This document shows positions 18,971 through 57,459 of a stretch of 64,000 nt of DNA, in pieces (position 1 is the first letter of the stretch; each line of letters begins with the position of its first letter). The translations under genes and the position numbers were made by a program. The DNA comes from Novosphingobium sp. 9 (lineage in GTDB: Bacteria; Pseudomonadota; Alphaproteobacteria; Sphingomonadales; Sphingomonadaceae), in contig NZ_CP022708.1 of assembly GCF_025340265.1 (NCBI RefSeq), positions 1,268,501 through 1,332,500 on the forward strand. Direction: 5' to 3'. A model generated the notes under the pieces. The model was not told the origin of the DNA. It saw only the letters and a list, made by a program, of their open reading frames with translations, and searched no databases.

Positions 18971-21832
18971 ATGACCGAAAACTCTGGTGAAATGCTCGAC
19001 AAGACCTTCGATCCGGCGGGGATCGAGACCCGCTGGTATGCCCATTGGGAAGCGAACGGCCTGTTCCGGCCCGAACGCCCCGATGCCGCGCCCTTCACCA
19101 TCGTGAACCCGCCGCCGAACGTCACCGGCTCGCTCCACATCGGCCACGCGCTCGACAACACCTTGCAGGACATCGTGATCCGTCACGAGCGTCTCAAGGG
19201 CAAGGACGCGCTGTGGGTGGTCGGCACCGACCATGCGGGCATCGCCACGCAGATGGTGGTCGAGCGCCAGATGGAAGCCGCAGGCGACAAGCGCACGAAC
19301 TACACGCGCGAAGGCTTCATCGACAAGGTGTGGGACTGGAAGCGCGAGAGCGGCGGCACCATCACCGGCCAGCTGCGTCGCCTCGGCTGCTCGATGGACT
19401 GGTCGCGCGAGCAGTTCACCATGGACCCGCACTTCACCAGGGCCGTGGTCAAGGTCTTCGTCGACCTGCACAAGCAGGGCCTCATCTATCGCGACAAGCG
19501 TCTGGTGAACTGGGACCCGAAGCTGAAGACCGCGATTTCCGACCTTGAGGTCGAGACGCGCGAGATCAACGGCTCGTTCTGGCACCTGAAATACCCGCTC
19601 TCGGACGGTTCGGGCTATATCCACGTCGCCACCACCCGTCCCGAGACGATGCTGGCCGACATGGCCGTGGCCGTGAACCCCGAGGACGCGCGCTACAAGG
19701 ATCTCGTCGCGCGCGGTGCCACCGTGACGCTGCCGATCACTGGGCGCGAGATTCCCATCGTCGCCGACGAGCACGCCGACCCGGAACTGGGCTCGGGCGC
19801 GGTGAAGATCACGCCGGGGCATGACTTCAACGACTTCGAAGTCGGCCGCCGCGCCGGAATCGAGGCGCGCGACATGCTCAACATGCTCGATGCCGAGGCG
19901 AAGGTCTGCCAGACCGCCGACGGCCTCGTACCGTCCGAATTCATCGGCATGGACCGCTTCGACGCGCGCAAGCTGGTGGTCGAGATGCTCGACGCCGATG
20001 GCCTGCTCGAAAAGGTCGAGGACCGCGTGATCCAGACGCCTTACGGCGATCGCGGCGGCGTGGTCATCGAGCCGTGGCTGACCGACCAGTGGTACGTCGA
20101 TGCGGCCACGCTCGCCGGGCCGCCGATGGAAGCGGTGCGCTCGGGCGCGATCGAGATCGTCCCCAAGTCGTGGGAGAAGACCTTCTTCAACTGGATGGAG
20201 AACATCCAGCCCTGGTGCGTCTCGCGCCAGCTGTGGTGGGGCCACCGCATCCCGGCGTGGTATGGGCCGAAAAAGGTTTCAGACTCTGCGCTCAGCTACT
20301 CAACACACGAAAAACCGGATGGGCAGATTGAGTTCTCTGGCGTCGAAATATTTGTAGCAGAGACTGAAGAAGAGGCGCTGCGCCTAGCTAACGAATTTTA
20401 CGGTCCTGAATATCAAGCATACATTGCCGATGGCCCCCTCGATGAGAGGGATGATCTTACTTTACCGATTTGGCGCGACAACGACGTGCTCGACACCTGG
20501 TTCTCCTCGGCGCTATGGCCTTTCGCCACGCTCGGCTGGCCGGAAGTCGATGCAACCCCCTCCCCGTTCGCATCGAGCGAAGTCGAGATGCCGCGCGATG
20601 GTGTCTCGACTGCGCTCGACACGAACGGCCGTCAGAGCCTGCTCGCCAAGCACTACCCCAACGATCTGCTCATCTCGGGCTTCGACATCCTGTTCTTCTG
20701 GGATGCGCGCATGGCCATGCAGGGCATCCACTTCATGAAGGAAGTGCCGTGGAAGCGGCTCTATCTCCATGGGCTGGTGCGCGCGGCGGACGGCGCCAAG
20801 ATGTCGAAGTCGAAGGGCAACGTCGTCGATCCGCTCGGCCTCATCGACCAGTACGGCGCCGACGCGCTGCGCTTCTTCATGGCCGCCATGGAGAGCCAGG
20901 GCCGCGACGTGAAGATGGACGAGAAACGGGTCGAGGGATACCGCAACTTCGCCACCAAGCTGTGGAACGCCGCGCGCTTCTGCCAGTCCAACGGCATCAC
21001 CGCGAGCACCTCGGTCAAGGCCCCGGCCGCGACCACAGCGGTCAACCGCTGGATCATCGGCGAAGTGGTCGAAACCGTCGCCGCGCTCGACAAGGCCATG
21101 GCCGACCTGCGCTTCGATGCCGCCGCCAACGCGATCTACCACTTCGTATGGAACCAGTTCTGCGACTGGTACATCGAGCTTATCAAGGGATCGTTCGACG
21201 ACGAGACCAAGGCCGTCGCCGGTTGGGTGCTCGACCAGATCCTCGTCATGCTGCACCCGTTCATGCCCTTCGTCACCGAAGAGCTGTGGAGCAAGATGGG
21301 CACGCGCGAGAGCGAACTGATCGTCGCGAAGTGGCCCGCGCCGGAAGCCGAAGTCGATGCTGCCGCCAAGGCCGAAGTCGAATGGCTGATCGCGCTCGTC
21401 GGCAACCTGCGCGGTGCGAAAGCAGAACTCGGCATTGCACCGGGCGCGCGTCTTACCGCCTATCTCGGCAATCCCTCGGAGGCGACCCGCGCGATCATCG
21501 AGCGCAACGGTAGCGCCATCGACCGCCTTGCCCGTCTCGAAGCGATCCGCTTCGAGGCTGCGCCTGCCGGTCCTGCCATGCAGATCGGCGCAGGCGATGC
21601 GACGCTCGTTCTCCCGCTCGAAGGCGTGATCGACATCGCGGCGGAGAAGGCCCGTCTGGAGAAGGCGCTCGCCGCCTCGCAGAAGGAAGCCAAGTCGCTC
21701 GAAGGCCGCCTGTCGAACCCCAAGTTCGTCGAGAAGGCCAAGCCGGAAGCCATCGAAAAGGCTCGCGCCGACCACGCGCACCATGCCGCCGAGGCCGAAC
21801 GCCTCGTCGCCGCCCTCGCCCGCCTGGGCTGA
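18971..21832 (+). CDS. valS: valyl-tRNA synthetase, with in-frame repeat insertion
   Basis: The 953-residue class I synthetase has HIGH motif HIGHALDNT and KMSKS motif [13 protein letters not shown]. The editing domain lies between, then an anticodon-binding domain and a C-terminal coiled coil ([20 protein letters not shown]). The start at 18971 ([15 protein letters not shown]) fits the family; MLDKTFDP seven codons later is an alternative. Two oddities are adjacent. Codons for roughly residues 435-500 (20271..20470) are much poorer in GC than the rest (about 49% over 20281..20460). Then, between GWPE and [12 protein letters not shown], there are 35 residues where I recall about 8 in E. coli ValRS. 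The excess is encoded by a 65-bp imperfect palindrome related to an intergenic repeat in this window. Confidence 0.96.
20564..20628. repeat. 65-bp palindromic element inside valS coding sequence
   Basis: Left arm 20564..20592 and right arm 20600..20628 are imperfect inverted repeats (24 of 29 positions pair) round a 7-base spacer. The right arm contains ACTGCGCTCGACACGAACGG, which occurs identically at 57439..57458 in an intergenic palindrome of the same design. It is read in frame, encoding about 22 residues including [19 protein letters not shown], between the editing domain and the KMSKS loop. It resembles, in principle, the protein-coding palindromic elements known from Rickettsia. Confidence 0.8.
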
Positions 21833-57390: not shown

Positions 57391-57459
57391 TCCGCTCATG
57401 TCGAGCAAAGTCGAGACATCCCGCGCTACCGTGCCTCAACTGCGCTCGACACGAACGGA
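57391..57459. repeat. intergenic palindromic element related to the valS insertion
   Basis: Arms 57391..57419 and 57431..57459 pair at 22 of 29 positions. It carries ACTGCGCTCGACACGAACGG, identical to the right arm of the valS element, and TGTCGAGCAAAGTCGAGAC, near-identical to its left arm. It is therefore a diverged second copy of the same repeat family. Confidence 0.8.

Follow-up and report, generated by a model that had tools for sequence, protein, structure and literature searches.

How does a palindromic repeat come to be read through as protein inside an essential gene? This question is raised by valS, the gene of valyl-tRNA synthetase (ValRS), in Novosphingobium sp. 9. Our analysis started from a stretch of 64,000 nucleotides of this genome (hereafter the window), in which valS is an open reading frame of 953 aa on the forward strand (18971..21832, ATG at 18971). 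The frame aligns to the T. thermophilus ValRS 1gax in three stretches, and it is the one full-length valS of the source genome (G000) among the matches listed. An earlier note on this DNA had described a 65-bp palindrome at 20564-20628, and we found this palindrome to be real: it consists of 29-nt arms, complementary at 24 of 29 positions, around a 7-nt spacer, and it lies wholly inside the valS open frame and in frame with it. The insert is more palindromic than all 200 codon shuffles of itself, and its RNA is predicted to fold at -45.3 kcal/mol, compared with -26.1 +/- 3.3 kcal/mol for 200 dinucleotide shuffles, none of which folded as well (z = -5.8). A repeat search with a seed of 9 missed the palindrome, whose exact runs are probably too short for that seed. 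From its place in the open frame of an essential gene it follows that the insert is, as far as can be judged from the DNA, translated.

The element has a clear internal structure. Its left unit (20564..20592, forward strand) is formed by the tag CCGTTC, the stem GCATC/GATGC and the loop GAGCGAAGTCGA, and is read as PFASSEVEM. It is followed on the same strand by the 7-nt spacer (20593..20599) and by an inverted right unit (20600..20628, reverse strand) with the stem GTGTC/GACAC and the loop GAGCGCAGTCGA, which is translated on the forward strand. Each arm is a hairpin on its own, and four of the five mismatches between the arms correspond to two compensatory changes. In the valS element, two REP hairpins are thus joined in inverted orientation as a dimer, the form known as REPIN. 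Comparison with empty alleles places it among the codons between GWPE and LLAKHYPND (20546..20638, forward strand; hereafter site 2), a position that lies, by sequence, between residues 472 and 477 of 1gax. The palindrome itself encodes about 22 residues, as had been stated, but the net gain relative to insert-free relatives is larger, at about 27 codons.

We searched the 4.39-Mb genome for the arm, a step that the earlier note had proposed, and found its 23-nt core at 17 sites with at most three mismatches; the reversed control pattern had no site in the same genome. Fourteen of these 17 sites are paired as seven inverted doublets. A second dimer of the same family, F1, is located within the window at 57392..57458, in DNA that is intergenic by the earlier account. 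The final 20 bases of the right valS arm are identical to 57439-57458, as reported, and the copy at 57392-57458 is itself a two-arm palindrome. In each F1 unit, a 5-bp stem is combined with the tag CCGTTC and the loop GAGCGNAGTCGA. Across the loci that we fetched, all five stem pairs are formed in 41 of 45 units, against 19 of 45 when the 3' stems are shuffled, and 14 distinct stems with four or five pairs occur. The loop of a second family, F2, is GAGCYTGTCGA, and full stem pairing is observed in 44 of 76 of its units compared with 8 of 76 after shuffling. F1 and F2 look like sister families.

REPINs have been described as hairpin units made of two inverted REPs that show compensatory changes, and have been related to RAYT transposases (PMC3116915, in the portion of the text available). 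The F1 dimer shares with them an inverted REP doublet able to form one hairpin and a dispersed distribution, mostly as doublets. RAYTs are unsupported as the general movers of these repeats: the Y1_Tnp domain (PF01797) is absent in 21 of 31 genus genomes, including the insert-bearing G006, G011, G015, G018, G022 and G023. The insert-bearing G000, G010 and G028 each have a Y1_Tnp match, and the single match in G000 contains an internal stop. Unlike in the REPIN/RAYT system, the enzymes linked to the repeats here are GIY-YIG and DUF559 proteins. We also considered whether F1 could be a CGTC REP, a class defined by an unpaired CGTC (or TGTC/CCTC) end tag, a stem of 8-9 bp and a CCA-like tail (PMC3733652, same restriction). 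This assignment was rejected: the F1 tag is GTTC in 36 of the 43 units having four or five pairs, and the covarying stem is 5 bp long.

We then read site 2 in the valS loci of named genomes and of samples of the genus, the order and the class. The genus sample comprised 90 loci from 99 genomes, nine partial or unlisted ones being left out. The order and class samples were obtained with positions 20635-20979 of the window as query; they comprised, for the order, the best 90 of 126 matching genomes (strongest first with few exceptions) and, for the class, 30 loci of 40, and every fetched locus was re-read by its ValRS motifs. From GW to the LISGFDI motif there are usually 15 or 16 residues. An insert was scored when the spacing reached at least 33 residues in total, and five genomes with short extra residues (21-30 in all) were scored as insert-free. 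Three loci (L289, L336 and L350) were unreadable at site 2, and two that missed the motif (L130 and L301) were added as empty. With these definitions, inserts were found in 22 of the 90 genomes of the genus and in 11 of 60 others from the family, a set that includes three of the same genus (G208, G241 and G242), hence in 33 of 150; none was found in the 52 genomes read from other families. Roughly three in four of the family genomes read have no insert. All 33 inserts are more palindromic than all 200 of their codon shuffles.

The valS palindrome is thus no accident of a single strain, since the same ValRS position holds several palindrome families in 33 of the 150 family genomes read. The relatives do not carry a universally conserved insert, and further copies of the arm exist in the genome, both of which leave this part of the earlier interpretation standing: with 17 arm sites and with empty alleles in relatives, a dispersed extragenic repeat has entered an essential gene in frame. 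At least five insert families can be distinguished by motif at site 2, where two groups are clearly unrelated; these labels rest on motifs and those of the C-rich types overlap. F1 inserts encode the peptide motifs SSEVE...STSLDTNG and F2 inserts RPELVEG...STSSART. The C-rich types are CCCTCTCCC, CCTCCCC with GGTGGAGGGG, CCCCTCCC and CCTCCTCT, and a TPAKAG/PASAGMT form is also present among the 120 proteins listed (P0077). One locus (L266) presents two dimers in tandem, and partly deleted remnants were observed in three others (L160, L173 and L276). Close relatives include both filled and empty alleles, and the best such pair is 97% identical over the following 420 nt. As an example of how the repeats are distributed, the insert of G095 is matched 40 times in its own genome (both strands counted), 55 times in G006, 44 times in G028, 11 times in G061, once each in G005 and G011, and not at all in G000 and G057.

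Because unrelated palindromes are among them, the inserts at site 2 cannot be one insertion. On a tree of 160 distinct sequences, each 800 aa or longer, from which the insert and the stretch s1 (see below) were left out and for which a rougher labelling was used, the presence of an insert changes 28 times, 26 of these changes being forced by starred branches, and the insert family changes 30 times; gain and loss are indistinguishable in these counts. Across one bacterial family, different palindromes have thus been gained or lost repeatedly at one codon position. F1 units keep to one reading frame in each orientation (11 of 11 forward and 12 of 12 reverse units). F2 uses one frame in 5 of 5 forward units and two frames in its reverse units (two and one). 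These are not independent events, since some units are related by descent. The frame used by F1 yields hydrophilic peptides, and the other frames of the valS and ileS copies of the source genome are also open across the repeat. A target-site duplication is not readable, as the loop sequence varies.

A second variable stretch, s1, is found upstream of site 2, before the motif DVLDTWFSS, and is present in the window in its long form of 74 aa (20261..20482, forward strand). It is hypervariable in the family, measuring 29-30 aa in some genomes and 55-99 aa in others, and it changes 35 times on the tree. Inserts at site 2 accompany 20 of 47 long forms versus 13 of 102 short forms (Fisher p = 1e-4), and the association has a median p of 0.012 over independent pairs (range 0.0001-0.12). 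Near-identical site-2 inserts occur alongside either form of s1 (L152 and P0003). A purely neutral loop does not account for this link of inserts with the long form.

Site 2 is not the only position that has received palindromes. Scanning 161 valS genes, we found eight cases elsewhere in the gene, seven of them repeat-like and one (L125) apparently conserved sequence; the same scan at its threshold recovered 26 site-2 palindromes in 34 insert-bearing genes. The gene ileS, which had been chosen as a control, turned out positive. The ileS of the source genome (L005:3-2981) carries an F1 dimer in frame after QWFVPMD, and the same loop contains F1 in G050 and G037, the CCTCCCC type in G028 and a further C-rich type in G016. 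The sequence in this loop of G004 resembles a CGTC-type remnant. The scan was positive in 4 of 30 ileS loci, which were the best-scoring 30 of 59 genomes, a choice that may favour insert-free genes; the ileS of the source genome lies outside these 30. No palindromic insert was detected in 30 leuS loci (four frames partial) or in 23 rpoB loci, the other 7 of 30 having no usable frame. Around codon 95 of leuS in the source genome (L502, C1:723607-726092), the matches fall in two adjacent frames, and this essential gene looks frameshifted, possibly by an assembly error. In the same genome, an F1 dimer is located in an 817-aa open frame (L003:573-3023), directly upstream of the MurB domains, where its translation is putative.

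What could move such repeats? Two ValRS proteins, P0067 and P0060, contain 188 residues at site 2, in which palindrome-encoded arms surround a DUF559 (Vsr-like) domain. P0067 is of metagenomic origin, and a Pfam scan of it returned the synthetase families, DUF559 and MTES_1575 only. Inverted flanks at both sides of the nuclease gene (score of at least 16) were found at 15 of 26 DUF559 loci of the genus and at 15 of 17 stand-alone GIY-YIG loci, versus none of 8 UvrC loci; class-wide, they were found at 10 of 23 stand-alone GIY-YIG loci and at neither of 2 UvrC loci. UvrC has a GIY-YIG domain too, and the stand-alone proteins were split from it by frame length and score only. Among the DUF559 loci, 11 of 26 lacked such flanks, as did 13 of 23 GIY-YIG loci in the class-wide set. 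Between-locus controls also reach the score of 16, because genomes share repeat families: this was the case for 6 of 52 (DUF559), 12 of 75 (genus GIY-YIG) and 21 of 600 (class-wide) comparisons. Loci too short for the flank test numbered, in the genus, 4 of 30 for DUF559, 3 of 20 for stand-alone GIY-YIG and 2 of 10 for UvrC and, class-wide, 3 of 26 for stand-alone GIY-YIG and 1 of 3 for UvrC.

Many of the repeats that flank nucleases belong to the palindrome families of valS and ileS or resemble CGTC-type REPs. Among GIY-YIG loci, F2 units were identified at 8 of 24 in the genus and at 4 of 26 class-wide; they also occur at 1 of 30 DUF559 loci and at none of 10 UvrC loci. Two GIY-YIG units of the source genome (L398:1494-1952 and L399:1423-1882) are 92% identical over 461 bp and are bounded by 32-bp perfect inverted ends of CGTC-REP look; they occupy different contexts, with no further shared flank in 3.5 kb. 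Together they have the look of a mobile unit, and several other flanks likewise resemble CGTC-type ends. None of the fetched loci presents F1 units on both sides of a nuclease; the GIY-YIG gene at C1:2400492 of the source genome presents them on one side only. We compared the valS insert with the palindromes of the genome's own nuclease loci in nine genomes, covering part of each genome's nuclease loci. It is well matched in two of nine (G000 at 28, at the one-sided locus, and G006 at 28), more weakly in G003 (22.5) and G028 (19), and without a match in the other five, the best match often being found in another genome. In G028 (L406:1410-2750), a palindrome-bounded DUF559 unit reads in frame into what may, by its motif, be the start of IspE.

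We consider it very probable that an F1 dimer, a MITE-like element of about 65 bp, inserted in valS and is read as about 22 hydrophilic residues in a tolerant loop, with the nuclease units as putative movers. Nucleases carried in larger units with matching ends would copy the palindromic repeats around the genome; the TCGA-rich and the CGTC-like repeats would be copied by stand-alone GIY-YIG proteins, and the C-rich types by DUF559 (Vsr-like) proteins. Insertions in valS would persist only where a tolerant loop, a stop-free frame and mild residues coincide, and the valS and ileS loops would act as traps for in-frame palindromes. The insert would have no conserved function and would decay or be replaced. 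For F1 itself, we infer the nuclease step from likeness to F2 and from one neighbouring GIY-YIG gene. A wider proposal, which we find plausible yet hold only tentatively, is that stand-alone GIY-YIG and DUF559 nucleases are the missing mobilisers of alphaproteobacterial palindromic repeats, including the CGTC repeats, which count some rickettsial palindromic elements among them, and that their units and short derivatives drive the repeated in-frame rebuilding of tRNA-synthetase loops.

Alternatively, the nucleases might recognise the sequence of valS (and ileS) and carry palindromes there, in the manner of homing endonuclease elements, with which P0067 shares a nuclease domain within a conserved essential gene. 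Such targeting would account for the clustering of inserts at one valS codon position (33 of 150) and in one ileS loop, with none in 23 rpoB and 30 leuS loci, and for the one ValRS with a nuclease unit at site 2 (P0067). Unlike in homing elements, however, palindrome and nuclease are read through in frame in one protein, and the site is shared by several palindrome families, whose linked nucleases belong to two unrelated folds. Palindromic inserts are also found elsewhere in valS (seven genes), and a permissive loop is the simpler account of both the family mix and these other inserts. Strict site specificity of one nuclease is disfavoured by the same mix and by the inserts elsewhere in valS and in ileS, and we regard targeting of valS as unlikely.

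A retained function appears somewhat more doubtful still. The insert could act as an mRNA hairpin that times translation or folding, or as an added surface peptide, and the very stable RNA hairpin (z = -5.8), the palindromic nature of 33 of 33 site-2 inserts and their association with the long form of s1 (Fisher p = 1e-4; median p = 0.012 over pairs) agree with this possibility. Yet about three quarters of the family genomes read do without an insert, partly deleted remnants persist (L160, L173 and L276), and neither the sequence nor the length of the insert is conserved. Finally, insertions are common in aminoacyl-tRNA synthetases, and an ordinary lineage-specific ValRS insertion could be self-complementary by chance, or the palindrome could be an assembly artefact. 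Either is hardly credible given the arm at 17 genomic sites, the compensatory stems and the occurrence of different families at one position in different species; the window, moreover, is part of a 1.385-Mb contig in a genome of two contigs.

Palindromes that encode protein are known above all from rickettsial parasites, and the earlier note drew an apt parallel with the Rickettsia palindromic elements (RPEs), with an in-frame palindromic repeat in a protein gene. RPEs are elements of about 150 bp inserted in frame in protein genes (PMC10969869), and RPE-6 and RPE-4 have been identified with CGTC REPs (PMC3733652), in the parts of these papers available. The two cases have in common palindromic repeats of several families that stand in frame in protein genes. 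They differ in that the F1 unit is without the CGTC tag, that several families here hit one position of one essential gene, and that some of these families have nuclease-bearing units. We liken the F1 element of valS to an RPE in the way it works, without assigning it to a described RPE family.

Repeats of related kinds are known closer to Novosphingobium: S. wittichii and S. chlorophenolicum are sphingomonads, as are, in the wide sense, E. litoralis and S. alaskensis. The former two have CGTC REPs, according to the accessible part of PMC3733652, which finds no association of such repeats with transposase genes and states that they "seem lacking a dedicated transposase". Intragenic REP dimers encode 20-30 residues, their hosts include tRNA synthetases of E. 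litoralis and S. alaskensis, and one same-site case has been described, in recB of two Xanthomonas species (PMC3733652). The valS element shares with these intragenic GTAG/CGTC REPs the dimers of 20-30 residues inside genes, tRNA synthetases included, and the earlier statement that no such case was known for sphingomonad valS has been overtaken in kind by the E. litoralis and S. alaskensis examples (PMC3733652). Among the open-access papers listed by our searches, judged by the openings of their abstracts, we found none that links GIY-YIG or DUF559 genes to REPs and none that names a palindrome in sphingomonad valS, although the supplementary gene list of PMC3733652 may name valS. In the literature found, we saw no account of mixed-family hotspots in valS and ileS or of nuclease-bounded units.

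With 33 of 150 family genomes presenting a palindrome of one of several families at a single position of an essential enzyme, the process can be observed in several states: empty, full, decayed and double. With the nuclease units there is a testable candidate mover for palindromic repeats without a known transposase, a question left open in the part of PMC3733652 available. Our results further suggest that, in these bacteria, many genes annotated as "GIY-YIG" or "DUF559" belong to small mobile elements.
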